From positions 1 through 64,000 of the forward strand of contig CM035307.1 of assembly GCA_002900995.3 (NCBI GenBank): a stretch of DNA of 64,000 nt, in the 5' to 3' direction. The DNA is from Ganoderma boninense (Eukaryota > Basidiomycota > Agaricomycetes > Polyporales > Polyporaceae). The translations under genes and the position numbers were made by a program. The stretch's first letter is position 1. Each line of letters starts with the position of its first letter. The notes beneath the pieces are model-generated. The model had not been told where the DNA came from. It saw only the letters and a list, made by a program, of their open reading frames with translations, and made no database searches. Below are positions 5,282-60,197 of this stretch, piece after piece.

Positions 5282-6785
5282 AATGTCGATAAAACCGTAG
5301 AACTGACCTAGATCTTATCATGATTACTGATCAAATCTAATCAAGCTTGATTTACTGAAATTACTAAGAAGATCACTGGGGCTCAAATCAAAGTAAGTTC
5401 TCTTCTAGTTCATGCCTGTCTCTCTTAACTAATCAGTGATGTGTCTGAGAATACACCTTTGTTCTTTTCGAGTACAAATCAACATAACATCTCAGGTTAA
5501 AGCATTGCAATTGTCTTCAGCAGTTCCTAGACCTTTTTGTAAGACAATTTTAAATAGGATCTACCAAGGTCTTTCTAGATCATTATATATATGGTTACAA
5601 TAATATCAAAACACCTTCAGTGACAACATTGTTACTAGCTTCTTGACAAAAATCTTTGACTTGAGCCAAGACCACATCTATAATGTGATACAAGTAATTT
5701 ATTTGTCAAATCAAGCATAGCTTTTCACACTATTCAACAAAGTTACTCAAGCTTTGATTATAATCAATACCTTTGTTGATTCCCCTACCTTACTTGCATA
5801 TAATTCTATCAGAGATTAACAGCCTTTGTAATAATATAAAGTGATCATTTAAGTAAGATCTCAACAAGTTCTAAATAAGTTTGTCTCTATTTCAATAGAT
5901 TCTAGAATCTGTAATAAAATTTATATTATAGCTTACTGTTATAGAAGACTGAGTAAGAGCCAGCATAGATCTGACAGTATCTATAATGACTTTTAGTTAT
6001 CTTTCTTGTATAAATATCCTAGACAGGGTAAGCTAATATCTAGGTATGCTCAAGTTCAATTTAATAGCCTGATTTTACTTTGACCTTACTTGAATAGAGA
6101 GAGCTGATGGCATTGATCTTACTGTAATACAAACCTGATTTTCCTTGAATAGAAACCTGATGTTACTTGGATTTTACTTGAATAGAACCTGTCATTGACT
6201 ATTAAAGTAGTATGACAATGTTCATGAAAGCTAAGAATATAATTGACCCTCATTGTTGACAATTAGTGGTAGTGGATTATAGTTGTTGACTATGTGGACT
6301 ATTTACTGAGCATTGTAGTAGTTGAGTATTTGTATTCAATGAATGGTGTTGACTATTGATCTATAAAAGTGAATTATAGTTGTTGAATCCTGAAATGTCT
6401 CATAAATGTTGTTGACTCTCAGCATAATAGTGTCTAATGGATGTTGAATATTGATGTACTGAAGTTTCTAATGAAATTTATTGACTATTAATAGTAGTAT
6501 TTTATATGTTTACTATAGATTTTATAGAGCATTTGATAAATGTTGTTGACTATTGACTCTACATTATAGTGTCTAATGAATGTTGTTGACCATTCCATCT
6601 ATATAATACACTGTTCAATGAAAAACACAATATTGACTGGGTGGACACTAGTGTCTCATAGCTTTGACCATGCACTAGTTTATCAATTGAAAGTTTTCTA
6701 ATGATTATAACTGTTGATTATTGATGCTAGTGTGAACATAATAGCATCATGTTATTGCCTAATGTACTAGTATATTAAAGCTTTC
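5282..6785 (+). repeat. AT-rich, CpG-free block D (left copy)
   Basis: About 1.5 kb, strikingly AT-rich and with no coding frame. It is the reverse complement of 58678-60197, near-identical by eye. In 5300-7370 I find a single CpG (5469-5470), whereas neighbouring DNA is CpG-rich. That is the signature expected of long-term cytosine methylation and deamination of a silenced repeat. The left copy was entered by the Harbinger element about 15 bp from its outer edge: bases 1015-1023, left of the transposon, still match the other copy. Confidence 0.85.
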
Positions 6786-7353
6786 TTGTATATAAGATAG
6801 TGTTCTGTATAGAATTTGGGTATTTGATCACAACTGCTTGTTCTCTAGCAGTCTCCAACATATAGTATATTCTGATGACCCTTCTAAATTCCTCCAACTT
6901 ACACTGCTTGTAGTTGTATTAGTGTACAGAATGATGAATCACTAGCATAACTGACTATCAATAGTGCCAGAGACACTAGTAGTGTCAACACAGTCAATAT
7001 TATGTTTTTCATTGAACAGTCTGTTATATAGATGGAAAGGTCAACAACATTCATTAGACACTATAATGTAGAGTCAATAGTCAACAACATTTATCAAATG
7101 CTCTATAAAATCTATAGTAAACATATAAAATACTACTATTAATAGTCAATAAATTTCATTAGAAACTTCAGTACATCAATATTCAACATCCATTAGACAC
7201 TATTATGCTGAGAGTCAACAACATTTATGAGACATTTCAGGATTCAACAACTATAATTCACTTTTATAGATCAATAGTCAACACCATTCATTGAATACAA
7301 ATACTCAACTACTACAATGCTCAGTAAATAGTCCACATAGTCAACAACTATAA
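6243..7353. repeat. Large AT-rich hairpin
   Basis: The arm at about 6243-6650 is repeated in reverse complement at about 6966-7353, separated by roughly 300 bp. Shared landmarks are GGACTATTTACTGAGCATTG in the left arm and its complement CAATGCTCAGTAAATAGTCC in the right arm. The distal copy of block D (58.7-60.2 kb) has only one arm, so the second arm is a local addition. No open frame. Confidence 0.85.
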
Positions 7354-7379
7354 TCCCTTCCACACTGATTGCAACTATC

Positions 7380-8424
7380 AGCGTGAGGCCGTTCTCTAGT
7401 CCACCAAGCGCATACCTGTGCAGGCAAGACCGAGGAGGCAAAGAGGCCCGGGACAGCGATGAAGCCCGGGACAATTGCTCAAAATCGCTCGGGACTCGCC
7501 AGAAAACGAGTACAGGTCTTCGTGTAGAAGACAAAGCATAGCCATTGGCCTAGTAGACATGCACGGATGTGATGGGCTCACCTGCCGCAAACGGGTTGAG
7601 CGATGAACGTTCCGGTGGCCACGTCTGGCAGCTGGTTGAGGGGTTGCACGTCTAACACACCCACCAGCCGCACTAGGGGCGCAGGGATGGGTCATGGAGG
7701 GGAGGGTCGCGGTCATAGCGAAGAACAGAGCACTACATGCTCGGGAGAACAACCGTCGTGGGCCACGGCGGAACAAGGGGCGAATGTGAGGTCAGGCCGA
7801 TGGTGCACAGATTGAGAAGGCACCTACCTGAGTATTCCAGGCGCCGAGCTGGTCCACGACGACTTGGCGGGGGCTCCATGGTGGGTGCCGAGTAGACGGT
7901 CTGGTTGCCAGGTCGCGCGCGCGAGCTTGTCCATTCAGATGACTGCGAAGATCCAGAGCCAGAATACAGAGGCTGGGCACCTGGGGGCCAGAATGTGGGT
8001 CGATGGAAGCAGTCGGAGAAGCCCTCGTCATCGCGCACCTGTGCCCGTTGGAGCCGTGTGACAGATAGCCTTCGGTGTCGGAATGAGTGCTGTCGACGAC
8101 GGATGTTGTAAAGGTGGACCTGGGACTCGACAAGTAGTCATTCGAGAGCCTCGTGCAGGAGTACTGTCGCCTGCCGTGAACATTCGGGTGCGTGTTGAAC
8201 ACAGGGAGATATGGATATGCGATCGACAGCCATACCTCAGAGTACATGGTCCGTGTCCTTTCTCGGACATCACCTCCTCAATAGCCATGCCGTTCCCGTG
8301 CTCGAATGCAGGCAAACAAGATCAGGCAACCTGTGATGCGGCAGGGTGACGACACATGTCAGCGAGATCGCAGAACGCAGGAGCACTCGGACGAAGACTC
8401 ACCATTAGCTGGCGTAGACGTCAT
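7380..8424 (-). pseudogene. Family X gene, left copy, degenerate
   Basis: Starts at ATG 8424 (MTSTPAN, then a GTGAGT donor), divergent from the RING gene at 8863. Several small exons can be read but not joined with confidence. Near 7460-7540 the minus strand encodes PVLVFWRVPSDFEQLSRASSL, similar to SVLSFYRIPEALRLSRAASL at about 57810 in repeat C'. The same family is therefore present here, in A' (truncated) and in both C arms. Function unknown; no domain recognised. The 3' end runs into the AT-rich block, so this copy may be broken. Confidence 0.45.
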
Positions 8425-9627
8425 TTATGGAGGAGAGTGCCGGGTCATGAGAGCGATAAGACGCGAAATCGTGGAGGGTCGAGGACGAGTGGGGTACAGA
8501 GTGCCGTCGCCTGACGTTACGACGACGAGTGAGATGAAGATGGAAGAAGATCGTTGAGAGACCGTGCGGTGCACAGTTTGCAAGTTGCAAGTAAGCGCCC
8601 GCCCATATCCCGATCTGGTACTGGCCAGTGTCTGGCCAGCCAGTGGCCTTCCGACTCGACCTCCACCATGTCTCGCCCATTTCTTCTATCCAGACCCCCT
8701 CGAACATTCCGCCGCTCCATCTCATGACTTTAAACTTTCAAGTACACTCATCAAAGATGGTTTTCAGTGGCTACAAAGAGCTTTGGTCATTCTCGACTTA
8801 TATCTTCGACTTACCTCTCCTTGGTCTCGCAACTGACGTCTCCCCAGAGCATCCTCGTCAACATGCACCCTACTTGTCCGATCTGCACAACCAGACTATC
8901 TCAGGACGTCCAGAACGAGAGGCCGGTTGTCCTGGACAGCTGCGGTAAGTCTTCAATCGGACGATCTGTCGTTCTTCTGTTGACGGTCATCAGGACATGT
9001 ACTGTGCGTCTCTTGTTTTCAGACGATCGTCCAGACAACGCGACCGTTCTGTCCGTTTCGCTGCAACACTGCTACAAAACTCGGCTTTGGAGACGGCAGA
9101 GTCCTCGAGATGTCCGTCAAGGAAAGTATTGTCGGCATCGACACGCCCCTTGCGGTTGAAAAGTACGTCTGTTCTGATGGATTATTTTTAAAGCTGTCTT
9201 TTTCATATCTCGACACCGTGTTCAGGCGAAAGGCGGAGATTGGCCGTGCTCAAGCTCGCGCTCGCAAGAATCGGAGGCAGACAAAGGAAGACATCCTTGC
9301 TATTTCCATCTTGATCCGCAACCAGGAGCGGTCACTCACCAACCGTCTGAAGTGCCTGGCTCGGGAGGCGGCGAAGGTCCAACGATTGAAGGACGAAGTC
9401 CCCAGAAGGCAGAAGGACTTGCGGAACGCTCAGGCTCGACTGGACAACGGCGAGGACCCGACGGAACCGGTGAGTTGCCTTCATATTTCGTCGCCCGCTC
9501 CCTTTGCTGACCATTCAGAATGCATCGTCATCGAAGGCATCCACTTCCGTCATCAGTCGCATGTCACCTCGCAAGGCTCGGTTGCCCCCGCGAGCCCCGC
9601 CCTCGAGGAGCGATGCCTCTTCGTGAC
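7765..9627 (+). repeat. Inverted repeat A (left arm)
   Basis: Reverse complement of 28637-30501, near-identical with scattered substitutions (for example ACA against ACG near 9037, synonymous). It contains the RING/coiled-coil gene, the divergent 5' part of family X and their shared promoter region. The inner breakpoint lies one base after the RING stop codon (9624-9626). The outer breakpoint lies inside the family X gene. Confidence 0.9.
8863..9626 (+). CDS. RING finger / coiled-coil protein (RING-1a)
   Basis: Four exons, 8863-8944, 8994-9162, 9226-9469 and 9519-9626, all GT-AG and in phase, give 200 aa. The N-terminus is a C3HC4-like RING: CPIC at residues 5-8, then DSCGHVLCVSC and CPFRC, so an E3 ubiquitin ligase role is plausible. 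Residues about 85-165 form a basic coiled coil (RKAEIGRAQARARKNRRQTK onward), followed by a Ser/Pro/Arg-rich tail. RING plus coiled coil without a recognisable B-box resembles a minimal TRIM-like layout. An intact second copy lies on - at 28638-29400. It is divergent from family X with about 440 bp between start codons. Confidence 0.85.
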
Positions 9628-9763: not shown

Positions 9764-9904
9764 GCGTGGCAGCTCGTCTGCGATCGAGCGGTTGAGAGCG
9801 CTTCTTACAAGATCGTGGTCGTCCGCCATTGTCCGACTCGATCAGCGACGCCATCGCCACTCCAGTCTCCACCAGCTACCCCCTCTCCGGCATACGTATC
9901 CTCA

Positions 9905-12900
9905 ATGTCGCGCTCTACATTGAAGCCCGGTAATGCGAAATCGCGAGTCAGCAAATCCACGCTGCGTCGCAGGCATGAAGATGCTGAGCTGGAACGTTTA
10001 TATCACGATGCATTCCCCACGGATCAGTTGGCTACAATTCGACGAGAAGTCCTACAGCGGACTTTAGAAGCTGCAGACCCTACGACACCCCCTGATCCCA
10101 TCCCTACGTCAACTCACGACCCCCCTCCTCGACCCCCTCCTATTGACCACCATCGCGAGGCCTTGCACGCAGAACTGAAGACGTTGTTGGGCGTAAATGA
10201 AACACTAGGCGATGCTCGTGCCGCTCTTCCACTGATTGGACAGTCCCTCAAGTTTGAACGGGACCCGCGTACGTCCGGCGTTTACACCCGTCAACGCTTC
10301 GAAGGCAATGTGACTACAAACTCTGGCCTGCACTCCCTATGTTTGGATGAGGATAGCAATCGACTCACCCTGAAGTTCGAAAGTACCCTCATACATCTCC
10401 TTGGCGTCCTCACATCTCCTGGCGCCCTCTCACACCCCGACGTGAACCCTCTCCGGAACGAGCTTCTAGGTCGCGTCCGGCAGGACTTGGAGAGCCTGGA
10501 CCTTATGAAGAGGCATGAGTGGGAACGGCAGCAACAAGGGATACCATCCATCCGCGAAGGCGGAGAGCACACAGTCGACACAAGTACGTATTGTGGCTAC
10601 TTTCCGTCACATGCCACTGAACCTTTTTGCAGAATACATCTTCGCGTCTTCCTGGACCCTCTGGTCAACTCGCGATGTCGTTCTTCACACAATCTATCTT
10701 GTCACTCTTGTGATGCACCTCCTGGAGGGGCTGACCCTTCGCGCATCAGAACTCCTCCTGGCCGGCCTCCGTGCGACTGTTTCTGTCACTTTGCAGTACG
10801 CTCGAGGCTCGGAGGGGCTGTCCCACCAAGACACTCTCCTAATCGATGATGTACACCGTGATCCACGCACAGTCCTGACCCGGTATAACTTGGAGCCTAT
10901 CCTCGATTCCTATACTTGCTGCCCCGCCTGTTTCGCACTCTATCCTATCACTTCCACGCCCTCCCTCTGTAGCTATCGAAGCGTTCCGACGGGCTCTACC
11001 TGCCAGGCAAAGCTACTCAGGACGCGAACCGTGGGCGGGAAACAATTAACTTCCTCCGTACGCACATACCTCCATCAACCTATGCGTCACTGGCTCGGCC
11101 GACTCGTATGTCGACCAGGGATTGAAACCTCGTTTATCGTACCTGACATGGAGGAGATCATGCACCCCCCGCTGACGAAACGCGACTTCTGGCATGGTTC
11201 CGCCCTCCGATCGTTTCTTGGTCCCGACAACTGTAAGCTATACGTCGACGCCCCGGAAGGGGAGACCAGGCTCGTTTTCAGCTTGGCCGTCGATGGTTTC
11301 AACCCATACCAGTCGAAAACGGCGAAGCAGAAGGTCACTTCTACGGCCATCTACATGGTCTGTCTCAACCTACCCCCGCATCTTCGCTATCTTCCAGAGA
11401 ACATGTATCTAGTTGGCGTTGTCCCTGGTCCCTCCAAGCCGTCCCTCGATCAACTCAACCACTTCCTCCGCCTCCTCGTCGACGACCTCTTACCTTTGTG
11501 GACCCCTGGTATCTCCTACACGCGCACAGATAAGCACACCGACGGCCACCATTATCGAGCAGCAGTTGTTCCGGTAGTCTGCGATGTACTGGCCGCACGC
11601 CAGGTCAGCGGACTTGGCTCACACTCCTCTACCTTCTTTTGTACCTTTTGTTATCTACCCCTCGACCAGATCGAACTCTTCGTCCCCGCCGCCTGGCCCA
11701 AACGAGATCTCGAGGAGCATAGGCTGAGGGCCAAAGCTTGGCGCGATGCCACTTCCATCATTGAACGGGAGAGACTGTTCGAGCTGTACGGCATTCGCTG
11801 GTCTGAACTTCTCCGTCTTCCCTACTGGGACCCCATTCGTTATACTGTGGTCGACTCTATGCACAATCTGTACCTCGGATTGCTAAAAAACCACTGCCGT
11901 GAGGTCTGGGGAATTAACCCCGATGTCGATGATGGCGATGCCTCCGCACACCCCACGAAGAAGCCTCCCCCTTTCCCCTCAAACTTGGAGTGGGAACGAG
12001 GTTTGGACATCTTGTACCATGGCCCGGATAGCGACCTACTCAAATGCAAGAAGGCTGTCCTGTGGCACCTTTGTGACCGTCGTGATCTTCGACGTGCTGG
12101 GACTGTGAAACAGCTATCCAAAGTGTTGATCAGCTGGGTAAGTCAAGACCTAATCGTTCGATGGTATCTTACTGACCGGAATGGTGGACAGAGGACGAGA
12201 TCTGGTCTTCCGCAACCGCGGAATGCCACAACCGCCACTGCGGTGCCGACAGCGACGCATAATCCTTCTACATCGAACTCGGATCGTGCTGCTGTCGAGC
12301 TCACGATCTCAGAGGATTTGAAGAGCGAAGTTGAGAAGGCTGAACGGAGCCTAGCGCGGGCAAAAGCTGCGAGAACATTGACGAACAGGAGAAAAAATGT
12401 TCTTCTGGCCATGTGTGCCACGCGGAACATACCCACTGCCGGTGCTACTGTGCCAATGCTAGCAGAACGATTGTGGAAGTGGAAACAGGCTGCAGTGAGT
12501 GTTAATCGTTGACTTATGGACGTACAGGAGATATCTCACATCTAATGATATCAGGATGCTGTCCCAGCAACCGGTTCAGCGGAAGACGGCGAGGTCATGC
12601 CGGACCGCTCTCGCTATGCCCTTGGACGTCAGTCTATGGAGGCTTTCAAAGAAATCAGGGAGGCTATGCAGCTGCCTAGTTGGATATCCCCTGCTCCTAG
12701 AGGGTTCGGGACGAGCGAACATGGGAAGCTCAGCGCTGATCAGTGGCACACGGCATGTACGGTTGTGCTACCAGTCGCGCTCATATGGGTATGGGCCAAA
12801 TCCGAAGACCGTAAGGTCCTCATGCTCAACAACTTCATGGATCTGGTGTCGGCGGTCGTTCTCGCTGGGCTTCTTGAAACCTCGGACCATCATATTGACC

Positions 12901-14026
12901 TTTATCAGGTGTATATGCTTCGATATCTAGAGGGACTGAAGGAACTATACCAAGAGGCCACGATTAAGCAGAACCACCATTACGCGCTCCACATTCCAGA
13001 CTTCATGGACCTGTTCTCCCCCGTCCACTCTTGGCGGTCTTTTGCGTTCGAGAGGTACAATTATATGCTTCAGACTTTGAATACCAACCTTACCTTTGGC
13101 GAGTTGCTTTTCAACTGTTTGTTGTTATTAAATTGCGTCATGCTGACAAAATAAACTTAGGTGAACTAGAGTCGACATTCATGAAGACCAGTTGCCGCGC
13201 CGCTAATCTGCGACCCCTTCTCAACGACTCTCGCATAGGACCCGCGTTTTCCGACTTCATGAAGGCCTATAATAAGCACTCCGGAGAAGATGAGCGCGGG
13301 CTGCGCCTTGATGCTATCTTGCGTTCTCGGAAGTCGGAACCCAGTGCGCCACCGTCACCTACGGGCGGCGACAAGACTGTCAAGCTCAGTGATCAGCAAT
13401 ATTCAGTGCTGCTTGCCATGCTGAACAACGAGACGCCTCAATATTTTGTCGACAACAGCATTCCGGATGCGGACTTCGGCTTTCGGAAGCTGACTCGCAA
13501 AGTCCAACCGTTGTCCAAAGTCCTCCTCTCAGGCATCTACTATCGCTCTATCTCGTCGTCGTCGAAAGACTGCAACATACTTTTCGCCCCCCCCACACCT
13601 CGTGGTTCGGACAGTGTTTCTTCGCTTTCCTACGCCGGCGTCATTCAAGACATCTTTGTTCACTCACGGACGTTACCTGACGGACGTCATATTTCTGAAG
13701 TCTTTCTCCATGTCGCCCAGTTTTCAGAGCTTAGTCAGGATGACCAAAGTCGTGACCCTTTCCGCAGGTTCCCCATCGCTGGGGGGCGACTTGTGTATGC
13801 TGAACTTCACATCAGGACCGTCATAATCCGCTCGTCGCAGGTGATATGTCACGTCGCGAAGACGCCACTCAACCTCGATGGAATTCAGGAAGCTTGCCTT
13901 CATATCCTTCCCCTAGATCGGGTAAGTGATTGTCTTGATACATCTTGACGTGACTGTTAATTGATCCCGAGATAGATGCTACGGTTCATGAAAATACAAG
14001 AGCGAACATATGAAGAGCGTGGATAG
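9905..14026 (+). CDS. CACTA-like (Tnp2/Plavaka-type) transposase
   Basis: Six exons, 9905-10583, 10633-12137, 12192-12494, 12555-13098, 13161-13921 and 13976-14026, join in phase to about 1,280 aa with no stop. Intron 4 (13099-13160) uses a GC donor (GCGAGT...TAG). I recognise the large transposase family expanded in Agaricomycetes: VDGFNPYQ, CLNLPPHLRYLPENMYL, VPGPSKPSLDQLNH, the Cys pair in FFCTFCYLPL, IRWSELLRLPYWDP and VDSMHNLYLGLLKNH. Acidic residues within these blocks are the expected catalytic ones; I cannot assign the triad. The start at 9905 is the first ATG after the TATA box. I found no terminal repeats, so element ends are undefined. It sits immediately after repeat A. Confidence 0.85.
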
Positions 14027-14078
14027 TGTACATGTATAAATATCCAAGTCATATAATGCTGTCTCATCGAATAGAGAG

Positions 14079-15484
14079 TCACAAATGCCTCCTTATAGCC
14101 AACCTAGCCTTCTCTTGGGCTAGAAGCTGACCTTCCTTCTGACGGCGCCTGCTCTTATACGAGCGCACCGTCTGGCCCTTAACCCAACTGGGCTCCAGTT
14201 TTGACCGGAAACACAGGTATCGATCAGGAATTGTGGGGTGAGGGTCGTATTCTTGAGCTGTTGCCCATCTCAAGTCCCAGACCCATACCTGAATATTTCC
14301 AGTTTGTAAGTGCTCGTGCAAAAACACGTCGCCAGACTCCCACTCTCCATCCGGCGGATGGAACAGAGGATATAACGCAGATGTTTTGAAGCTCCGCGTA
14401 AAGCCGTCCTGTTCACCTGCACGGAATCGATGCACGGTAACGACGGGCTTGAGGAACTGGGGAAGGAGACGAGGAGTGTTGTCGGTTGCAGTGGAACGAG
14501 GGGAGTCACCAGTCTGCATGGCAGGCAGCTGACTCGGTCCAGGCATAGGTCCCAGTACGCCAGCAGGAGAAGACGCAACCGGAGACAGCGCAGCCATGTG
14601 ATTTGGAAGGGGAAAGGGAGGCGCAAAGGGAGGCGACGGAGGCGCGTGTGGCGAGGAGCTTTGCAGCGTGAAGGCGGGAGGGGGGTTTGGCACGGTCGGA
14701 AACAGGGGGGTCCTGAATGGCAGATGATCCTGAGGGTATGGCATTTCGAGGAGCGAATGGTCAAGAGCAGGAGATGACGAAGGTCCTGGATCGGGCACCA
14801 CGCCACTCGAAGTTGGTGGATACAGTCCCGGTGGACGAAGGCCAGACACCAAGTGCGCACCCGCGTCATGAGTACTAGGTTGTCGCTGCCCTGGTTCAAT
14901 GCGCTCGATGAGGAATCGAACGTTCCTGGCGGGTGCCACCACCGCCATCACGGACTGAGCACCGGGTTGAGCGCCGATTGGAGGAGGAGACGGTGATTCC
15001 ACGTTTTCAATAGACGTCAGGAGAGACGTCTGGAGATCAGGAGAGCTTGGCTGGCTGCTGTCTTCGTTCGAGGCGTCAGAGCTAGGCCATGACGCTTCCA
15101 CGAGGGCTCCAACCGTAGGTGATGACCTAGGTGGCGCGTCACGGTGGTCGGAGGAATTGACCTACGTGCAGATCTCAGCATCAAGACGGTATCACGTATT
15201 AGCACCTGTACTGGACTCACGACTTGCGTCTGAAGTGCAGGCGACGATGTTTGCGCCGCCGGATGGCTGTCGCCACAAGCGTTTCCGGTCGATGGATGCG
15301 CTGCCTCTTGCCCATCGTCTCTACAATAAATACGTGGTCAGAATACCAATCAAAGCCATGGATGAATTACGCGTGCATACTCGTGCAGACGCTATTATAG
15401 GTAAATGAGTGTGTAAGACTTACGCGGATCCGATGGTTGTATCGTTTGCGTGACAAGGATGCGAGCTTGAGTCGGGCCTGACAT
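14079..15484 (-). CDS. Probable accessory gene of the CACTA-like element
   Basis: Convergent with the transposase, 52 bp between stops. The long last exon (from about 15161 down to 14079) encodes a Ser/Pro-rich region followed by a conserved-looking C-terminus with FLKPVVTVHRFRAGEQ, WVWDLRWATAQEYDP and a basic end (YKSRRRQKEGQLLAQEKARL). An acceptor at 15162 and donors near 15220 and 15423 suggest upstream exons, one beginning at ATG 15484 (MSGPTQARILVTQTIQ), but I could not join them all in phase. Function unknown. Its placement back-to-back with the transposase suggests it belongs to the same element (inference). Confidence 0.5.
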
Positions 15485-15528: not shown

Positions 15529-17706
15529 TCAGAGTCTAAATTTTACATTTTGAAGTTGAGACGGACATACCTTCCACCCCCTCCGGGTGTCGTCGTCGGG
15601 AGGGTTGGAAGTTTTGACGGTGAAACAGCGAGGACGCGGACCCATAGTCACCAGGACTAGTGAGCCACCAGCAACGTCTTCTGTATGGGGGTCCTCGTAG
15701 AGTGAGTCTGTTTTATGGTAGCCCGTGCTATACCAACAGCTTGGTGTAAGTGTTACCAGGAGGATATGAAAGGTTGTAAACGCGGCGAACAAAAGGCGTA
15801 ACGCCGAGAAAGGGGCAGTTTTCTGGAAATGGGCATGCCGGCCCGGCGGCCAGTCGTTCCGGCAGCGCTTACACTGCGCAATTGCAATTCATCCATCGCT
15901 GAATGGCGGAAGAGATGTACAATGGTGGCAATTCGTAGCCTATGGCCATCCTGTGAGTTTGAAAACATCTTTCAAACGCAAAGCCAGTTCGGGATAACGT
16001 GTCGCGGATTCGCGAACCACGAAGGAGATGCTACTCTTCACCACAGAGTCCCCAGCCGCGGCGATCGAAAGGTCGAAATGCTGACAACCTTGAGTTAGTT
16101 GAACGGAGCGCGCAAACACGAGCTTAAGACCAACTAGTATTCGCAGTATTCGCAGGAACGGGACCAGTCTTCCGCCTAGATCACAATGAGCGATAGCGAC
16201 AGCTTATAGTACGTCACGTACTGAGGTCAAGGGAGATAACCAAGACAAGTACACCAGCGTATACGGGGCAAAACGGATAGGACCTTCGGCCGCTAGAACG
16301 GCTACAATCTGTTCTGCATGTAAGGGGAGATGGTGACTGTGTGCGAGTGCCGTGCACCGACGAAGGCTGCTGTTGGGCACGACCTTGCTGATGGCCGGCT
16401 GTCCTTCTGGGGGGAGTCATGGGTCCCGAGCGCCACACGTTGATCTCTGTACTGTGACCGCGCTCTGAGGATCCCGTCGCAATGAAGTGTAGTACGTTTC
16501 CTATTACCCCATACGCCTGGTGGGTGAAGGTGTTTCAATAATATTCTGAAACTTGCAAGTTTCAACTTACCACCGCTTGAATTAGGTCATCTGTCCCGAA
16601 ATCGTGAGCCCAGTGCACGTGGCTGCCGTGGAAACAAAAGACACAAACCTGTATGGTCAAGGGTCTGAATAACAGAACCGTCATCCTTGTCCACAACCGT
16701 TACGACCCCACAAGCACTGCCAAAGAGCAGTGCATCGCCGTTGTGAATGAAGGAAGCAGGGAGTGACACGTTCAAGCCTGCGGAAATAGGGTAGCTGCTG
16801 ACCAACTTCCGATGATCTATCCGGTAGCGGTCGAAGCCATTGCAAAGATTGCACACGACAACCGATCGACTATCCGGAGATATAGTCGTCCTGGCACTGA
16901 GTACGCAATCGTCAAGGCCTCGGAATAAAACTATCATGGAAATTTGACGTACATGCGGGTCTTCGTCGGGAGAATCCACTTGACCTGAGTTGTCTCTGTA
17001 TCCCAACATCTGCGGCTTCCAATTAGCCCAATCGACGCCCATCAGTTGCTAACTCACACCAATCCATGGTACAGATATGAGACGATCATAGTACGCCCAT
17101 CCTCGATGAAGTGTAGAGAGCAAGGTGAAATCTCTTTGGTGTCAGTCAGATCCGTAGAGAACGCGGGTTTGGGGAATTTCCGCAACCGATAGCTGCCTAA
17201 ATCACTTCGTTAGGGGTCAGTAACACCATTTAGACGATCTCATACCGATTGCCTTGCGCTTCAGCTTGCAAAGGATAACCTCGGATCCAACGATAGCCGC
17301 CAAGGTATCACCTGTATCGTCGTAATCCAGAGCTTCCACGGCACCCTGCGACTCCGTATCAATGCGACTCCCGGTGGGATCCATCTCCTGGGAATGTAGT
17401 TAGTTTTGAAGGTGGCAGTAGACGTCGAGATAGACAAGTAACCTGCGTGGCGATATGATACAGGAAAATAGCACCATTGCCGTATCCAACAAAGATGCTG
17501 TTGAGCTCAGCTGGATGCCAAAGGAGGGCCGTAACCGGGGCTGCTGCGACGAGGCTTATATCTCCATTTTCTTGATCGAAGATGTTGAAAATAGCGAGAC
17601 GACCGTCGTCGCCGCCCGCCGCGAGCTGTCCTCGAGTGCTGAATTGCAAGCAGTTGATCGAATCTTCGAACCCGCGCAGGGTTCGCAGCAGGGTGTAAGG
17701 CTCCAT
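15529..17706 (-). CDS. WD40-repeat-like protein
   Basis: Starts at MEPYTLLRTLRG (17706). The first exon runs to a GT donor at 17442 and carries WD40-type blades: FEDSINCLQFSTRGQLAAGG, DDGRLAIFNIFDQ, APVTALLWHPAELN and YGNGAIFLYHIATQ. Further exons (about 17380-17250, 17210-17090 and 17042-16620) add ALDYDDTGDTLAAIVGS, SARTTISPDSRSVVVCN and HNGDALLFGSACGVVTVVDK. A 3' frame at 15792-15529 has a hydrophobic stretch (FAAFTTFHILLVTLTP) that could be a C-terminal membrane segment of the same gene, but exons between 16565 and 15800 are unresolved. Beta-propeller scaffold; partner unknown. Confidence 0.65.
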
Positions 17707-17709
17707 GGA

Positions 17710-18433
17710 GTCGAGTACGAGAGGACTACACGAAGCTGAGACAAGTCGCAAGAAAGATGGGAGTTCGTGGCATTCTCGCTGCGCGATTCATCTCGCATGC
17801 TCGCCGCAGACAAAGCATGATGGACCTGTGGGAAGAGGTCACGCCACCAGGCTGAGATCACCCTTCGAATATTTTAAAGCGTAGACAGGCATCGCGAGCG
17901 TACAAATGTTGTAACGGCATGAGATAGCAGGTGGTCAGCGAGCACTCGAGCACCTCCGAAGTCCCTTGAGTCGAATCCTTGGCCATGGGACGAGATGAGA
18001 TTAGCGCTCGGTGGTCCAAACACACGTCAGCGCTCGCTCAGCATTCGTTTACTCACTACCCCCATGCATATGATAACATGGCTACGCATCCGCACTGCGT
18101 CTTCTCTCCAGCAACGAGCTTTATGGGCACTCGTCTCGAATCTCCGTCACTGTGACGATCTCACCCGACCCAGCCCGACGTCCGCTGCAGATCAAGGCTA
18201 TAGTCTTTCGACAGTAAGTATATGGGCACGTTTGTGACCGATTGTAGTACTCACTCAGTGGCGACACGTCTGGACAAACAGCCTTCATTTTTGCGGATTG
18301 GGAGCTATTGTTTGGGGGAGAGATATTAGGATGTGTGCGTACCCTCCTCATTTCCCCACCCACCTTACCGCCACGGCTCGCCTCTTCATCCCTAGGATTT
18401 CTTATACACCGCACACGCCTTGCCGAACCGCAG
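17710..18433. other. Divergent intergenic region
   Basis: Lies between the WD40-like gene (-) and the FHA kinase (+) and must hold both promoters. No gene or strong TATA element recognised. Confidence 0.4.
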
Positions 18434-35706: not shown

Positions 35707-35707
35707 C

Positions 35708-45489: not shown

Positions 45490-45962
45490 CGACGTATGTA
45501 GCCTGGCATGAGATACCCACACTCGAATTAGCACCACACGGGCGGGATATGGCAGGACGGGCGCACCATGTGTCCGGTGCCGACGATAGTTGCGAACGTC
45601 AGCCCCCCGCCGCTCCTCGTCAGACCGGCGATCTGATTTCCCTTGATCGTCCACACATTCAGCGGCTGGCGCCGGAATTCATCTTTCTTCGTCCATTCCA
45701 GTGCCATCGTCATCGCCTCGTTCCCCATCTGTGCGCCAGGGATGCATGTCAGCGAGTTAGATCTCACCAAGGAGACGATGACACAGAGACGCACCCAGTT
45801 ACAGATGTAGTCGGTGGCGCCGACGTAAATGAGCGTGCGGATGCCGCGCTCGAGAAGCGCAGCGATGTAGAATTGTGCCGGGAAGGAGAACATGTCAAGA
45901 TTCGCGTGGAAGGCTTGGTGGCTACTCACGGGACGATGGCCCATCAACATCCTGAAAAGCAT
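45490..45962 (-). pseudogene. C-terminal fragment of serine carboxypeptidase (S10), arm B'
   Basis: Inverted copy of 35234-35706 with the same YICNW and GTGHM motifs and the same absence of the nucleophile-serine half. Confidence 0.75.
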
Positions 45963-47349: not shown

Positions 47350-47770
47350 GGCGTCCGAATAGCGACAGCAGGATGTGCCACGGCAGAAGGCATTGAACTT
47401 CAGCGATGCTGGGGCAAGGTAATCAGTCGAGAGAGAGATTTGGAGGTGACGGGACGTCAGACCTTCTTCTTTATACTGACGGGAGCCCTGCAAACTACAC
47501 GTGCTGCTGAGGGAAGGAAAGACGGAAGCGGTCCGAAGTCGTGCATATCCACGTCCCGAGAGAGAGAACATACATGTATCATTGGCCAGGATTATCGGTG
47601 GGCCTCTTCGGGAGGCACTCCTCCCTCGTGTTCGAAAACATTGTTGGACGTAGGTGTAATGGCTGGGGAGAGAAAGTTGCAAGTCCATATTCGGACTGAC
47701 GCACGTGACGTATGCAAGTCTCACACAGGACGTCGAGCGCCGGCGAGAACCACCCCCGCGGCGTTCCACT

Positions 47771-48136
47771 ATGACCATGACTCTTCGGCGTACTTATTCT
47801 TCATCCTACTCGCCGCCGCATATCTCCATCACCCGGATCGTTCTGGCCAGCTCATCTGCCGCAGCCTCCTGTGCCTGTCGCCTGTCATATTCCGCCATTC
47901 AACCTGGTCTCTCATCCCCCGCTACGGAGGTGGCCTACCCTCACGATGCACTGACCACTGGTGAGGGGCATGTCCTGTCATTTCATCGGCATACTTGTTT
48001 TGATAACCCCGTTAGCTCGCGTTCACCGCGCCCACCGCTTGCGTTCACCCGGGCCGGCATAATTTGCCATGCAAGACAAAGGAACAATATCCCTTTGCTC
48101 AGTCTCCCCTCGCACTCCGCGTCCGAAAGTCCGTAG
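47771..48136 (+). CDS. Uncertain ORF in repeat B'
   Basis: Inverted copy of the Ser/Pro-rich open frame at 33055-33417. No domain or splice evidence. Confidence 0.25.
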   Translation: MTMTLRRTYSSSYSPPHISITRIVLASSSAAASCACRLSYSAIQPGLSSPATEVAYPHDALTTGEGHVLSFHRHTCFDNPVSSRSPRPPLAFTRAGIICHARQRNNIPLLSLPSHSASESP

Positions 48137-48179
48137 TAGACGCAATGTGCTTTGTTTCTCTGCGCGAGTATAAGGGTCC

Positions 48180-48293
48180 CTCGCGTACTCCCTCGACCTC
48201 AGCACCCCCTCGACTTCAGCACCCCCTCGACTTCAGCACCCCCTCGACTTCAGCACCCCCTCGACCTCAGCACCCCCTCGACCTCACCCCCCA
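48180..48293 (-). repeat. 17-bp minisatellite upstream of PHL-2b
   Basis: Six units of TCGACTTCAGCACCCCC type ending about 10 bp before the PHL-2b ATG. Counterpart of 32898-33000. Confidence 0.85.
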
Positions 48294-48302
48294 CCTGTAT
48301 TA

Positions 48303-48927
48303 ATGGCGCTCTATGAGTGAGTGTCCCCCGTCTCAGGAGCTACAACCGCATGCTGACCGGTCACTTGCAGCAAAGCTGTTGTTGCGTTTTCGACTTGCGG
48401 CGTTCGAGGCCTCTATGAGTCCGAAGAACACCGTGTCCGTCTTTTGCTGCTTGAATACACCAAGGATCGCTGTACGTTGATCTTACCGTGTCCGCAAGTT
48501 GTCCGTTCTGATGATGTCGTGCTCGCGTAGACGTTCTCCTCATTTTTCGCCTGACCAATGATGGAGCTCCCGGCAACGTCGTCGTTCGCGTCGACATTCC
48601 CGATCACCGAGTCACGTTCCATACATGCGAGGTAAGCCCTCTGTTTGTTGTGAATCAACTTTCATTCTGACCATCATGTCCCAGAAAAGCGGTGTTATTG
48701 ACGTGAACATCGAGGGCCAAGATCGCGGCTCGCCCTACTCGCTTGTTTTCGGGAGGGACTCTGCGGCCTTCTGGGAAATTCTTCAGATCATCTCCGAAGC
48801 AAAGGCCGTGGCGTTGGCCCATGAACAGAAGGTGACTGCACTTATTCAGGACGCCATCGGGACCGTGTCAGGGTTAGCCCCGCCGGTCTCCATGGAGGCG
48901 TTTGAAGAGGGCGAGATCGTAGCTTAG
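48303..48927 (+). CDS. Small beta-rich family protein PHL-2b
   Basis: Four exons joining in phase: MALYD (ATG 48303), KAVVAFSTCGVRGLYESEEH to TKDR, YVLLIFRLTNDGAPGNVVVR to HTCE, and KSGVIDVNIEGQDRGSPYSL to the stop at 48925. Duplicate of PHL-2a. The end of exon 4 is 430 bp from the start of its paralogue PHL-4, which lies just outside the repeat. Confidence 0.65.
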
Positions 48928-49357
48928 ACTTAGTGGGTGTATGGCGATGCGAAATCTCCGTGAACAATACATGCGATCGATGTGACCTGCCCGCAGCTCC
49001 TGCCGCCTCTCAGGGTTAACGTTGATTGCGCCCGCAGACCGTGTACATGTATGCCTCCAGAGACTTCGCTTGCAGCGGTACCTCCGGCGGTCCGCTATTT
49101 ATGAGGCTCGTCTCTGAAGCCTGAGGCCTGAGGCTGCGGCCATGTCGCACGGAGCGTTGGTGTTCCCACTCATGCTCTCTGCATGGGTGCACCCACCGGC
49201 CCTGCCCTGAGGCCTGTATGGCATGTTGATCGTTTTATGGCGCGACGCAATGTCTGGGACTATGGCTCTTTGTCAAAGGCGGTCTTTATACTATTTGAAC
49301 GACGTGTCCGCACCGCGCTCCTGCTCCAATTCCCCCCACCACCGTGAACTGACATTC

Positions 49358-49985: not shown

Positions 49986-50433
49986 ATGGTCCGCTGATCG
50001 TGCATTCATACTTCATTTCATCTCTAGCCCGTGAGGTGAACTCCACACAGCATGTCACACTCTGCATTGTTCCTAGACCGTTCAATTAGAAGCCGCCGAA
50101 GCGAGGATGGGCACACATAGCCCCGCACCCCTCTCCTGCCCCGCCGCGGCGTGTGCACATCTTCACTTACCGCCGCATCCACAGGTCACGGGGGTCGTCA
50201 AAAAGAGCGGCCTCCAAAAGAGAATCTCCTATGCGTTCCGCTACACGTTTTCCCGGAGGTCTGATTCGCAAGCTGCTGGGGTACATTCCGTAGCACGTAG
50301 GTCAATCTCCGCGCCGCGTCCGAGAGAAGGACGCGACTCACATGCGTTGATTCGACGGGTACATAAGCATTACTGGGACGTTCGTGGTGACGATTACCTG
50401 ATAGTAAGGCACATCCCTTCCAACATCCACGTC

Positions 50434-52051
50434 CCGCTCCTCACCCCCATCGAGTACCGAACACGGCGCGCTCCCCAGGATGGACCCATCTGCGCGACGA
50501 TCCGCCCGTCCGGCTCCCCAGCACCTTCCTTAGCTCGTCCATCCACGCCCCGAACTCGCCCTCCACTGTACCGCTCCTACATCCCCGGTCCTGCCACCTC
50601 CAGCCTCCTTCCCATAGCAGCAGCCTTGCCGCGCCCGGGCGACTTCAGCCCGTCCGACACTTGCTTGGCCGTCGGTGTACGTTGGACGTGGCGGAAGATG
50701 TGGCGAAAGATGGGAGGCGCGTCGCGCGCGGTCGGGCATTGTGCGGGTGAGGATGGCTTTTCGCACACGCCAAGAATGTCAATGAGCGTGGCTAAGCCGA
50801 AGTTTGAGGTTGAGTCCGCTCGCCACTCCACCAGCACATACCTGAGCGGGGACAAGTGCGCAGGGATGCGGCCCGGGACAACCTCAACGCCTCGGGGATT
50901 CGGTAGAAAGACAGTACAGATCTGCGTATAGAAGACGACATATAGTCAGTGACCTGGAAATGCACAGATGCGATGGGCTTACCTGGTTGCGAACAGTTCG
51001 AGCGATGAAGGTTTTGTGCCCATGTTTGGCACTAGGGGCGCAGGGAGTGTCATAGTGAAGAACAGAGCGCTATATGCTCGTTGTGCAGGGAGAACAGCTG
51101 TCATGGGCCACAGCAGACGAAGGGCGAATGTAAGGTCAGGCCGATGATCAATACACAGATCGGAGAGGCACCTACCTGAGTGTTTTGAGGCGCCGACATG
51201 GTCTACGACAATCATTTCCAGGTCGCGCGCGAGCTCGTCACGGTCCGAATTGTCCTTTCATATGGCTGCGAAGATCCGGAGGCAGAGTACCAGGAACGCG
51301 ACTGGGAGTGTTAGGCAGACTGTGGGTCGATGAAAGCAAAGCAGGCGGAGGAGCTCTCGTCATCGCGCACCTGTGTCCGTCAATGTCCTCAGTGCTCAAA
51401 GGACTTGAGGGATCTGGATCCTGATTTCTGCGTAAAGCTAAGGAGCGTCCTGGTTAGTACCTGCTCCAGAAGCGAGTAAGAGAACGACTCATGCGGGCGA
51501 CGAACTTCCCTCAGCATTTTCCACGGGGCCGAGGCAGGAACACTAGGTCTGCTGGCAGACAGATATGGCGTGAGAGCTCGTGGATGCCGTGGGGCGGGGT
51601 GGAGGGTCTTGAGGGAAGGTCGTCGCTGACCGACGATCGAAAAACTATATCCTGCACTTCATGGCCTCGGGAACCAAAACGCTCCCGTTGTCGGGCTTGA
51701 AGGACGCCAGTTTCCCGAGTGAGGTGAGGACTTGGCCATTGCAGCTAGCGTCGAATGTTATGAGAGTGGGTGCAGCTGCGGCATGCCGGTGAGAGCTCGG
51801 TCTGCGGGAAGGATCGATGGATCGCTCCTGGCGTCGGGCAAGAGGCGAGTAGTGTGAGCGAGAGGCGAATACTGTGACTACGGGGGTCAAAAAGGGACTC
51901 TTGGGGGACGGGTAGCAGTCCAGCATACCATCGTCTGAACGTGGGCACTGTGGTGGCGGTGGGAGGGCACTTTTCGATCGGTGGCGAGATCCTGAGAGAT
52001 GCGGGGGGAGAGCAAGAGTCGCGCGAGAGAAGCGCCCATGCCCTCTTCTGT
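50434..52051 (+). repeat. Inverted repeat C (left arm)
   Basis: Reverse complement of 56669-58292, near-identical by eye with small indels (for example near 51045 against 57680). Contains family X on the minus strand. Confidence 0.9.
50572..51215 (-). CDS. Family X gene, arm C
   Basis: Exons on - include MIVVDHVGASKHS (51215 end), VLPAQRAYSALFFTM with VPNMGTKPSSLELFATR, SVLSFYRIPEALRLSRAASL, and YVLVEWRADSTSNFGLATLI to GRRLEVAGPGM. Splice sites are visible (GTAGGT, GTAAGC, GTATGT donors), but two frames stay open through the third exon and I cannot decide between them. Unknown function. A short deletion relative to the other arm near 51045 may shift the frame here. Confidence 0.4.
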
Positions 52052-52516
52052 CCCTGCCGTCCTATTCGCCATGCATCCTAGTCACTTCCTCTCTCTACGC
52101 TCACGCCGCAGTATCGTGCGTGTAACCGGTGGGCGATTAGGTCTCCCAAGCATCCCATGCGCTGTTCGTTGACTCTGTTGCTGTACAACTTCAGGGTGGA
52201 CAGACACGCCTGCCGCCGCACCCCATGGACGGGGAGATAATGCAAGGACGGGCAGATAATGCAAGGACGTACGGGCAGATAATGCAAGGGCCCGGGTGGG
52301 CGTCGTGGTGAAAGACAGCAGGCCGTTGTCGCTCTAGATCCCTTCCTTCACGGGCAAACGCTCTTTGTGAGTAGTCACTGGTTTGTGTTCCCCAACTTTC
52401 GTTCACAAAGCACCTTTGACTTGAATCTAGGATAAAAGGAAGACGTTAGGTGCTATGATTGACCATTAACCGACCTTTCCTGCCATTTGTTCCCCTGCTC
52501 CCGACCCCACCCAATT
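52052..52516. other. Intergenic between arm C and CC-3
   Basis: Contains a short tandem motif GGACGGGCAGATAATGCAA (about 52235-52290, three units). No gene recognised; presumably holds the CC-3 promoter. Confidence 0.5.
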
Positions 52517-55688: not shown

Positions 55689-56545
55689 ATGGAGATTCGA
55701 GTCTCTGATGATCCCGAAGCCTCGAAAGATAGAAGTGGACATTCATGTGAGCATGCCATTCATACCCCCATTTCCGAGTTGAATATGGAAGTCTGCTGTT
55801 TGGCAACCTTGACCCAGCGCCGTAAGTAAATTCCAACTATCATACGTACCTCCTAAATTCTTACATGGTCCCACCCGATAGAGACACCTTCTACACAGCA
55901 AGTGAAGGCGATATCGATATCGAAGAATCAACTCAGGTCCTTGACAGTGATTGCGTCTCTCGCACCGTAAGCAGGGACTGGTAAATATAGTGTTCCTACG
56001 CATTCTAACTGCGAGTCCCTGCCTCATCGCAGATATTCGATGGCTCGCATTGCAACTTCAGCCCGACGTTCCAGGGACAGTTCAGCGGCAGTTTCGTGCC
56101 GACTCTAGACTATGCCACTATCCAACACTCGCCCGACATGATGGCGGTGGATCCAACGTTCCCTGTCCCGTCGCCTGCATTGTTTTATGGCAGCGAGAGC
56201 CTGCCCGACCCCGGCCGTCCGAGGGATCGTGAGGACTGCGTCCGGTGCAAAGAGCTTCAAGCCGTAAGAAAACATCTCATCCCATTTGACCACGTCTCAT
56301 ATGTCTACTCCCAGGGCATGCACACCCTTCTGTCGAGTGTGGAGCAGGTTCAGGAGGATCTACGACGTATGCGAGAGGAGCTGAGCAGGATCAAGCGTAG
56401 TGCAGCTCATTCAGTGGGAACTCAGAGCGACACCGTGAGCTCCAGCCCAATCCGCGCGCAGGTGGGAGGGTCTGCTCCTGCTCCTGCCGGCGACGTTGAT
56501 GTGCGTGTAGCCCGGGGACGCAAGTTGACAATCACTATTCTCTAA
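55689..56545 (+). CDS. CxxC / coiled-coil protein ZK-2
   Basis: Start MEIRVSDDPEASKDRSGHSC. After an intron (GTAAGT near 55824) comes an acidic exon HTFYTASEGDIDIEESTQ, then IFDGSHCNFSPTFQGQF, PVPSPALFYGSESLPDPG and CVRCKELQA. An intron interrupts the coiled coil, which continues GMHTLLSSVEQVQEDLRRMR, with a Ser-rich linker and the C-terminus DVDVRVARGRKLTITIL, stop at 56543. Paralogue of ZK-1 at 21.1 kb, sharing the CxxC, the intron after it, the coil and the VRVARGRK end. Function unknown; possibly a nuclear adaptor (inference). Confidence 0.65.
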
Positions 56546-56668
56546 AGTGTCCCTGGCACGTTGAGACTTCTTCCGCAACCACGCCCACTGTATTATATAG
56601 ATCTCACTTTACAAGTAGCTCAGCGTTGAAGGTCAAGGTGTGCTCACAGGAAGCTCAGAGAGCCGTAG

Positions 56669-58292
56669 AGACAGAAGAGGGCATGGGCGCTTCTCTCGCG
56701 CGACTCTTGCTCTCCCCCCGCATCTCTCAGGATCTCGCCACCGATCGAAAAGTGCCCTCCCACCGCCACCACAGTGCCCACGTTCAGACGATGGTATGCT
56801 GGACTGCTACCCGTCCCCCAAGAGTCCCTTTTTGACCCCCGTAGTCACAGTATTCGCCTCTCGCTCACACTACTCGCCTCTTGCCCGACGCCAGGAGCGA
56901 TCCATCGATCCTTCCCGCAGACCGAGCTCTCACCGGCATGCCGCAGCTGCACCCACTCTCATAACATTCGACGCTAGCTGCAATGGCCAAGTCCTCACCT
57001 CACTCGGGAAACTGGCGTCCTTCAAGCCCCGACAACGGGAGCGTTTTGGTTCCCGAGGCCATGAAGTGCAGGATATAGTTTTTCGATCGTCGGTCAGCGA
57101 CGACCTTCCCTCAAGACCCTCCACCCCGCCCCACGGCATCCACGAGCTCTCACGCCATATCTGTCTGCCAGCAGACCTAGTGTTCCTGCCTCGGCCCCGT
57201 GGAAAATGCTGAGGGAAGTTCGTCGCCCGCATGAGTCGTTCTCTTACTCGCTTCTGGAGCAGGTACTAACCAGGACGCTCCTTAGCTTTACGCAGAAATC
57301 AGGATCCAGATCCCTCAAGTCCTTTGAGCACTGAGGACATTGACGGACACAGGTGCGCGATGACGAGAGCTCCTCCGCCTGCTTTGCTTTCATCGACCCA
57401 CAGTCTGCCTAACACTCCCAGTCGCGTTCCTGGTACTCTGCCTCCGGATCTTCGCAGCCATATGAAAGGACAATTCGGACCGTGACGAGCTCGCGCGCGA
57501 CCTGGAAATGATTGTCGTAGACCATGTCGGCGCCTCAAAACACTCAGGTAGGTGCCTCTCCGATCTGTGTATTGATCATCGGCCTGACCTTACATTCGCC
57601 CTTCGTCTGCTGTGGCCCATGACAGCTGTTCTCCCTGCACAACGAGCATATAGCGCTCTGTTCTTCACTATGACACTCACTCCCTGCGCCCTAGTGCCAA
57701 ACATGGGCACAAAACCTTCATCGCTCGAACTGTTCGCAACCAGGTAAGCCCATCGCATCTGTGCATTTCCAGGTCACTGACTATATGTCGTCTTCTATAC
57801 GCAGATCTGTACTGTCTTTCTACCGAATCCCCGAGGCGTTGAGGTTGTCCCGGGCCGCATCCCTGCGCACTTGTCCCCGCTCAGGTATGTGCTGGTGGAG
57901 TGGCGAGCGGACTCAACCTCAAACTTCGGCTTAGCCACGCTCATTGACATTCTTGGCGTGTGCGAAAAGCCATCCTCACCCGCACAATGCCCGACCGCGC
58001 GCGACGCGCCTCCCATCTTTCGCCACATCTTCCGCCACGTCCAACGTACACCGACGGCCAAGCAAGTGTCGGACGGGCTGAAGTCGCCCGGGCGCGGCAA
58101 GGCTGCTGCTATGGGAAGGAGGCTGGAGGTGGCAGGACCGGGGATGTAGGAGCGGTACAGTGGAGGGCGAGTTCGGGGCGTGGATGGACGAGCTAAGGAA
58201 GGTGCTGGGGAGCCGGACGGGCGGATCGTCGCGCAGATGGGTCCATCCTGGGGAGCGCGCCGTGTTCGGTACTCGATGGGGGTGAGGAGCGC
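56669..58292 (-). repeat. Inverted repeat C' (right arm)
   Basis: Inverted partner of 50434-52051. The loop between the two arms holds CC-3, CC-4 and ZK-2 only. Confidence 0.9.
57508..58149 (+). CDS. Family X gene, arm C'
   Basis: Same exons as the copy at 50572-51215: MIVVDHVGASKHS (or, in another frame, MSAPQNTQ from ATG 57525), VLPAQRAYSALFFTM with an extra TPCAL tract, SVLSFYRIPEALRLSRAASL, then YVLVEWRADSTSNFGLATLI to the stop at 58147. The VLSFYRIP exon is the part shared with the distant copy near 7.5 kb, which supports that frame. No function can be assigned. Confidence 0.4.
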
Positions 58293-58677
58293 GATATGTG
58301 GACAGGGAGAACATACGCATTGTACGGGCAGGTGCCGTTTTTGTGTGGGCGTTGTGGCCAACGTGCATCCAGATTGCAAGTAACAGTGCTGCTGTGCGCA
58401 ACCTCGAAGAGAGATTTGGCTGTTCAGCTGTCGCTGGAATGCTGTTTCTGCAAGTTCAAGGATCCGACTTCTCTCGCGACTGGCTGAACTATTAAGTCAG
58501 CCATATGGATTATAGGGATATCGCCCTCCGGCCGTCGTGCACCCCTCCCCCCAGCAATGGAACTAGAGAGTCTGAGCTGAAATGAGTATAAACATAAAGC
58601 TTCAAGACTGTAGCTCCAGATATAAGGGGATCATGTACGCAAAGCTGAGTTCCGAGCGACGTCTACGACACTATCTT

Positions 58678-60197
58678 ATATCTCAGAAAGGTTTAATGTA
58701 CTAGTGTATTAGGCAATAACATGGTGCTATTATGTTCACACTAGCATCAATAATCAACAGTTATAATCATTAGAAAACTTTCAATTGATAAACTAGTGCA
58801 TGGTCAAAGCTATGAGACACTAGTGTCCACCCAGCCAATATTATGTTTTTCATTGAACAGTGTATTATATAGAACAACATTCATTAGACACTATAATATA
58901 GAGGCAATAGTCAACAACATTTATCAAATGCTCTATAAAATCTATAGTAAACATATAAAACACTACTATTAATAGTCAATAAATTTCATTAGAAACTTCA
59001 GTACATCAATATTCAACATCCATTAGACACTATTATGCTGAGAGTCAACAACATTTATGAGACATTTCAGGATTCAACAACTATAATTCACTTTTATAGA
59101 TCAATAGTCAACACCATTCATTGAATACAAATACTCAACTACTACAATGCTCAGTAAATAGTCCACATAGTCAACAACTATAATCCACTACCACTAATTG
59201 TCAACAATGAGGGTCAATTATATTCTTAGCTTTCATGAACATTGTCATACTACTTAATAGTCAATGACAGGTTCTATTCAAGTAAAATCCAAGTAACATC
59301 AGGTTTCTATTCAAGGAAAATCAGGTTTGTATTACAGTAAGATCAATGCCATCAGCTCTCTCTATTCAAGTAAGGTCAAAGTAAAATCAGGCTATTAAAT
59401 TGAACTTGAGCATACCTAGATATTAGCTTACCCTGTCTAGGATATTTATACAAGAAAGATAACTAAAAGTCATTATAGATACTGTCAGATCTATGCTGGC
59501 TCTTACTCAGTCTTCTATAACAGTAAGCTATAATATAAATTTTATTACAGATTCTAGAATCTATTGAAATAGAGACAAACTTATTTAGAACTTGTTGAGA
59601 TCTTACTTAAATGATCACTTTATATTATTACAAAGGCTGTTAATCTCTGATAGAATTATATGCAAGTAAGGTAGGGGAATCAACAAAGGTATTGATTATA
59701 ATCAAAGCTTGAGTAACTTTGTTGAATAGTGTGAAAAGCTATGCTTGATTTGACAAATAAATTACTTGTATCACATTATAGATGTGGTCTTGGCTCAAGT
59801 CAAAGATTTTTGTCAAGAAGCTAGTAACAATGTTGTCACTGAAGGTGTTTTGATATTATTGTAACCATATATATAATGATCTAGAAAGACCTTGGTAGAT
59901 CCTATTTAAAATTGTCTTACAAAAAGGTCTAGGAACTGCTGAAGACAATTGCAATGCTTTAACCTGAGATGTTATGTTGATTTGTACTCGAAAAGAACAA
60001 AGGTGTATTCTCAGACACATCACTGATTAGTTAAGAGAGACAGGCATGAACTAGAAGAGAACTTACTTTGATTTGAGCCCCAGTGATCTTCTTAGTAATT
60101 TCAGTAAATCAAGCTTGATTAGATTTGATCAGTAATCATGATAAGATCTAGGTCAGTTCTACGGTTTTATCGACATTTGCCCACGGTGCAGCACGCC
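58678..60197 (-). repeat. AT-rich, CpG-free block D' (right copy, empty Harbinger site)
   Basis: Reverse complement of 5282-6785 plus the 9-15 bp left of the Harbinger element. It has the same near-absence of CpG. At 60171-60184 (CGACATTTGCCCAC) it preserves the unoccupied insertion site with a single copy of the target trinucleotide. It lacks the second hairpin arm seen on the left. Confidence 0.88.

Follow-up and report, generated by a model that had tools for sequence, protein, structure and literature searches.

How do several pairs of long inverted repeats, set one after another in a fungal genome, come to have arms that are almost identical? The question is raised by the first 64,000 nucleotides of contig CM035307.1 of Ganoderma boninense (assembly GCA_002900995.3). 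This whole stretch is referred to here as the window, and the contig, 4,597,913 bp long in an assembly of 55.6 Mb and 74 contigs, as C4 (the window is C4:1-64000). Palindromes were mapped within the window by self-BLAST and repeat finding, and the material throughout is a single assembly of one genome, that is, the letters of one isolate. The original prediction of four inverted pairs, in the order D-A-A'-B-B'-C-C'-D', was borne out in both position and order. We conclude that this island is probably a series of real inverted duplications, the arms of which are kept near-identical by nonreciprocal arm-to-arm copying (ectopic gene conversion).

The self-comparison and arm-identity calculation suggested with that prediction were run, and they gave kilobase-long arms at 98 to 99.7% identity, far above chance. 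Identity is at least about 99% in A, B, and C (in B, 99.2 to 99.4% around a loop of 7.3 kb) and just 98.4% overall in D. Over 1,865 aligned columns, the A arms differ by 3 substitutions and 2 insertions or deletions (indels). The B arms differ by 7 substitutions, 15 indels, and one 215-bp tandem unit, and the C arms by 6 substitutions and 2 indels. Four of the B substitutions lie beside an indel at position 33658, two are no more than 21 bp from the outer edge, and one is internal; in C, four are beside the indel at 51037 and two are no more than 3 bp from the arm edges. When arm-edge and indel-adjacent substitutions are set aside, three remain in A, one in B, and none in C. Short indels, many of which fall within base runs, make up most of the differences in these three pairs; the numerous 1- to 3-base indels of B, several of which are likewise in base runs, resemble sequencing error. 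None of the three alignments has an identity step within the arms.

Evidence that such similarity is not simply a matter of age comes from a paralogous palindrome on another contig, C3. A search with the protein of the RING/coiled-coil gene carried by the A arms located two convergent RING copies there, in the arms of a palindrome at C3:1524132-1526245 and 1548133-1546019 (2.1 kb, 99.34% identical, loop of 19.8 kb) that has the same layout as A. Its aligned arms differ by 6 indels and 7 substitutions, of which three are consecutive near an indel, three are no more than 15 bp from the inner edge, and one is elsewhere. The two loops are collinear over about 18 kb at 65 to 73% DNA identity. Window segments 10639-12145, 13632-14484, 16643-17687, 18972-19292, 19550-19935, and 25546-25709 match C3:1527208-1543355 in order, and window segment 28047-28217 matches C3:1545456-1545626, providing an anchor on the right. 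The distance from loop anchor to inner arm edge is 692 bp in A and 646 bp in C3 on the left, and 420 and 393 bp on the right. Because these distances are alike, the second arm lies at a homologous place in both loci; the simplest reading would be that it was already in place in their common ancestor. The outer flanks of the two palindromes, as far as examined, show no match to each other.

The two loci are far diverged. Their RING proteins are identical at 106 of 199 amino acids (53%), with a proportion of synonymous differences (pS) of 0.82, which is saturated, and of nonsynonymous differences (pN) of 0.30. The adjoining tnp2-type transposases share 323 of 446 amino acids, with synonymous (dS) and nonsynonymous (dN) divergences of 2.2 and 0.18. 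Arm identity within each pair is 99.3 to 99.7%, whereas RING protein identity between the pairs is 53%. By the simplest reading of these alignments, the A palindrome would be older than the split of the C4 and C3 loci. Since a palindrome that predates this split nevertheless has near-identical arms, its arms would have evolved in concert; arms of that age would not be expected to be still so alike unless they were homogenized.

A different kind of evidence is found in D and in E3, a further inverted pair on C4 outside the window (255996-257136 and 269966-268740). Between the D arms there are 2 indels and 13 substitutions. Every one of these substitutions falls in the inner 0.3 kb (6499-6789, about 4% divergence), and the outer 1.2 kb has no substitution and one single-base indel. 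In E3, the 28 substitutions and 3 indels all fall in the outer 191 bp (about 15% divergence), and the inner 950 bp is without any difference. The substitution-free run of 1,216 bp in D was reached in 0 of 20,000 shuffles, as was the run in E3 (0 of 20,000). These abrupt identity steps resemble the boundaries of conversion tracts. D is also distinctive in composition: its ratio of observed to expected CpG is 0.08, against about 1.0 elsewhere, and it looks like CpG-poor DNA long exposed to the loss of methyl-cytosine. The D sequence has no other occurrence in the assembly search.

Of the two behaviors predicted, loop inversion and homogenization of the arms, it is the second that has support. 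Homogenization is well supported for A, by the C3 palindrome and its saturated synonymous sites. It is supported for D, by abrupt boundaries that recur in E3, and we only infer it for B and C, where the same copying may act. In the A pair, copying would have been under way since before the locus was split into its C4 and C3 copies, and it could proceed by recombinational gene conversion or by template switching between arms. The arm edges may bear a trace of this process. The stop codon of the A-arm RING gene ends 1 bp short of the inner arm edge, and the left C3 arm ends 9 bp past the RING stop codon; selected coding sequence may stay alignable while the untranslated flank drifts beyond the reach of conversion.

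Several points weigh against this conclusion. A second arm was undetected at the C3 relatives of E3 and B, and those palindromes may be young; only the best candidates of the genome searches were scored, so the failure to detect second arms carries little weight. In each A-type pair, a one-base homopolymer indel (window 29118; C3:1525708) puts one RING copy out of frame, and the partner copy is open. If real, these frameshifts weaken the idea that both copies are under selection. In principle, the consensus of an assembly could also make near-identical arms more uniform than they are, the support comes from one genome, and an identity higher within than between elements is also what long terminal inverted repeats (TIRs) of transposons would give.

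The ages of the other pairs can be judged in part from their relatives. Apart from A, tnp2 adjoins RING at C3:1.527 Mb (the C3 palindrome), C3:388 kb (the combination lying at C3:386-391 kb), and C4:265 kb (at C4:263-268 kb). The last of these lies within E3, which has a single RING copy just within its right arm. C3:385.9-399.1 kb is a relative collinear with E3 in which there is one short arm match and a second arm was undetected, and the homology continues beyond the outer arm edge of E3 (C4:254335-255001 and C3:398407-399081). The symmetry of E3 may therefore be younger than its locus. Most of E3 lies in turn in the 35-kb loop of another palindrome, with C4:254001-259225 mirrored at 299822-294585 at about 100% identity (arms of at least 5.2 kb). 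The B arm has one relative, at C3:1514067-1514445, and a mirrored second match was undetected among the best candidates scored; with a single match on C3, the B palindrome may be young rather than ancestral. The C arms have a segment of about 70% identity in common with the A arms, the outer part of which is missing on the A' side, and a C-loop open reading frame (ORF; 56009-56542) is distantly related (31% amino acid identity) to an A-loop ORF (21089-21430). Such similarities are a hint of kinship between the A and C palindromes, with a common segment that may be coding.

A possible, although in our view doubtful, alternative is that A and the C3 palindrome are both giant tnp2-type DNA transposons of about 23 to 24 kb. 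Their arms would then be long TIRs, copied and held alike through transposition and gap repair, and B and C would be further such elements nested in D. In A and in the C3 palindrome, tnp2 lies just inside the left arm, beside RING, and the combination recurs at two more loci. Inverted arms flank three of the four RING-tnp2 loci found, with tnp2 between the arms in A, the C3 relative, and E3. Moreover, the A and C3 arms both start with CCACG, which resembles the CACGG start of the TIR of the Cryptococcus CMC element CNEST given in PMC12810828; the arms of B, C, D, and E3 start otherwise. However, a target-site duplication of at least 2 bases occurs in 0 of the 6 pairs examined, and the arm edges are unlike the TGT..ACA of PlavakaA or the CATCA..TGATG of PlavakaB, as these are described in PMC12730594. 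The arms are kilobases long, in contrast to the 24- and 33-bp TIRs of two CMC elements described in PMC12810828. Those of E3 are not the ends of the unit shared with C3, given the collinearity beyond the outer edge, and no transposase was recognized in the ORFs scanned from the loops of B (20 ORFs, no Pfam family at E <= 0.01) and C (6 ORFs, one sub-threshold match). Even for a transposon, the identity steps inside arms would still require conversion. A transposon origin of A is plausible, and both readings may be true together, with a transposon-born unit now kept symmetric by conversion. The tnp2 gene looks to be under selection, judging from a dN/dS of about 0.08 between loci. We consider it a quite improbable extension that RING and tnp2 drive their own palindrome, the transposase cutting in or near the arms so that arm-to-arm repair follows and two identical RING copies are kept, in a transposon-derived, self-repairing unit away from mating-type genes.

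Conversion would be unnecessary if the four pairs were recent, independent inverted duplications, produced by fold-back or template-switch repair and too young to have diverged. The scarcity of substitutions in the A, B, and C arms would agree with this, as would the second arms of B or E3 unseen at their C3 relatives. We nevertheless consider it unlikely, as the A palindrome is common to C3 at saturated synonymous divergence, and the arms of D and E3 pair older parts (about 4% and 15% divergent) with parts free of substitutions. Much less probable still is that the second arms are false copies, created by an assembly artifact or a haplotype misjoin. The short base-run indels between arms do suggest a noisy long-read consensus. 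Nonetheless, searches of the assembly with the loops and with the flanks used as queries gave no further near-identical copy, a homologous right-hand arm is present again on C3, and 13 substitutions separate the D arms. The matches listed for STE3 and for Homeobox_KN each fall in one region, which makes a two-haplotype assembly unlikely. The palindromes are serial and not one mirrored haplotype; this order, with loops lacking second copies, rules out a misjoin in the form of a single mirrored block. Arm-to-arm conversion thus remains the explanation that we prefer.

The features of the window are listed below.

Table 1. Palindrome arms, loops, and genes of the island (window coordinates)
Feature	Position	Strand	Details
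D arm	5282-6803	+	self-BLAST; 1.52 kb, 98.4% identity, loop 51.9 kb; 31% GC
d arm	6246-6657	+	self-BLAST; small palindrome overlapping D
d' arm	6970-7384	-	self-BLAST
Segment matching C arms	7454-8048		matches part of C arms at about 70-73% DNA identity; spans A outer edge, left side only
A arm	7763-9627	+	1.865 kb, 99.7% identity, loop 19.0 kb
RING/coiled-coil gene in A	8863-9626	+	4 exons by predicted splicing, 200 amino acids
tnp2-type transposase gene region	9764-13945	+	PF02992 in ORF 10509-12509; directly 3' of left RING gene
A-loop ORFs	16590-17787	-	WD40 repeat in 17362-17787; 16643-17687 matches C3:1533352-1534396
Protein-kinase-domain ORF in A loop	18903-19436	+	
Right-hand A-loop anchor	28047-28217		420 bp from A' inner edge; C3 counterpart 393 bp from its edge
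A' arm	28637-30499	-	
Second RING copy in A'	28638-29400	-	frame shifted by one-base homopolymer indel (real, or a sequence error)
B arm	32243-37036	+	4.8 kb; 215-bp tandem array at 35707-36412
B-loop segment	41204-41975		relative at C3:1518924-1519691 (68%)
B' arm	44376-48952	-	4.6 kb; 215-bp array at 44997-45489, one unit fewer than B
C arm	50432-52055	+	1.62 kb, 99.5% identity, loop 4.6 kb
C loop	52056-56666		
C' arm	56667-58294	-	
D' arm	58668-60177	-	self-BLAST and alignment

The fifth pair, d/d', was absent from the original prediction; its arms are 95.7% identical by self-BLAST, and d' also matches D' directly over 0.4 kb at 92.5%. A 78% repeat at 5094-5295 stops about 13 bp into D and has its other copy at C4:148198-147997. 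A stretch of the B arm near the tandem array (35277-35703) is related to sequence at C9:2840746 (92%) and C9:2846009 (78%). The claim that no long direct duplicates occur except tandem repeats held within the window, apart from the d'/D' match and the 215-bp units of B, and failed next door. The neighboring stretch C4:64001-271400, our sole control, also holds long repeats in both orientations at 65 to 98% identity. Self-BLAST of C4:1-271400 (at least 200 bp and at least 97% identity) gave 15 rows, several overlapping, of which 10 are inverted and 5 are direct. A 454-bp pair and the 215-bp units are among the direct ones, as is a duplication of 10.65 kb (97.7%) at C4:96993-107605 and 108906-119507, with 1.3 kb between its copies. 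A small palindrome with 309-bp arms (99.7%) lies at C4:226207-226515 and 227013-226706.

Intron-containing genes are visible in the window and, with a cluster of STE3 receptor matches on C7, indicate a basidiomycete. A Pfam scan of 146 ORFs, hand-picked from 216 (at least 88 amino acids, outside the second arms, short exons not included), gave 23 families, carboxypeptidase and ankyrin matches among them. The window has no tRNA, no Rfam family at the gathering score, and no telomere repeat (TTAGGGTTAGGG). The RING protein had no homologue (0 of 174 candidates at E <= 0.001) in a large protein collection that may hold few fungal proteins. The island is flanked by a DUF6818 match (2854-3918, in a flank region of 2854-4933) and a sub-threshold glyoxal-oxidase-like match (60883-61941). 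Farther out, and from among those 23 families, are a DDE_Tnp_4 transposase match to the left (1979-2557) and a sub-threshold terpene-synthase match (63616-63999). A pheromone receptor at the ORF starting at 18903 is ruled out, as this ORF carries a kinase domain. The island is likewise not a mating-type island: among the matches listed, all 24 of 24 for STE3 lie at C7:2.199-2.240 Mb, the single Homeobox_KN match of the assembly search is at C5:2.335 Mb, and none is near the palindromes.

Palindromes of mammalian sex chromosomes, with which the island had been compared from the outset, are reportedly kept alike by arm-to-arm conversion, an account credited to Rozen and coworkers in 2003 (see also PMC6790999). 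The comparison holds for the mechanism and fails for the location, the mating-type genes that were located being on C7 and C5. As in those palindromes, gene-bearing inverted arms at about 98 to 99.7% identity enclose unique loops, and in A the structure is older than the arm divergence; the present case differs in being fungal, in lying away from the located mating-type genes, and in having one unit with a transposase gene. In Caenorhabditis, inverted-repeat gene pairs conserve their structure while their sequence changes, and symmetry was lost in one relative (PMC1803023). Convergent or divergent paralogous genes and a conserved palindrome are common to both systems, and that loss of symmetry resembles the difference here between A and the pairs B and E3. 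However, that study compares species and gives spacers of 126 and 414 bp in two examples, whereas the comparison made here is between paralogous loci within a single genome, which have tnp2 and loops of about 20 kb. With the fungal Plavaka and CACTA (CMC) transposons, as described in PMC12730594 and PMC12810828, the island shares a tnp2-type transposase (a Pfam name), inverted ends, and a CCACG resembling CACGG of CNEST. Unlike the elements described there, it has kilobase arms, no target-site duplication, non-Plavaka termini, and RING inside the arms, with RING and tnp2 together at four loci. The Cryptococcus KDZ elements are about 9 to 11 kb long, with TIRs of 139 to 241 bp, duplications of 4 to 8 bp, and a KDZ transposase, according to PMC12810828; they are likewise large with TIRs above 100 bp, but here the transposase is tnp2 and the arms are 1 to 5 kb. 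A literature search covering titles and the beginnings of abstracts, with most subscription journals outside its reach, returned no report of homogenized nuclear gene palindromes in mushrooms.

The usual context of long-lived palindromes with arm-to-arm copying is a sex chromosome without a recombining partner. A fungal case away from the located mating-type genes, with a transposase that looks selected and an older paralogous palindrome as a yardstick, probes what sustains palindromes. As fungi yield single-spore progeny, conversion and loop inversion would be directly countable.

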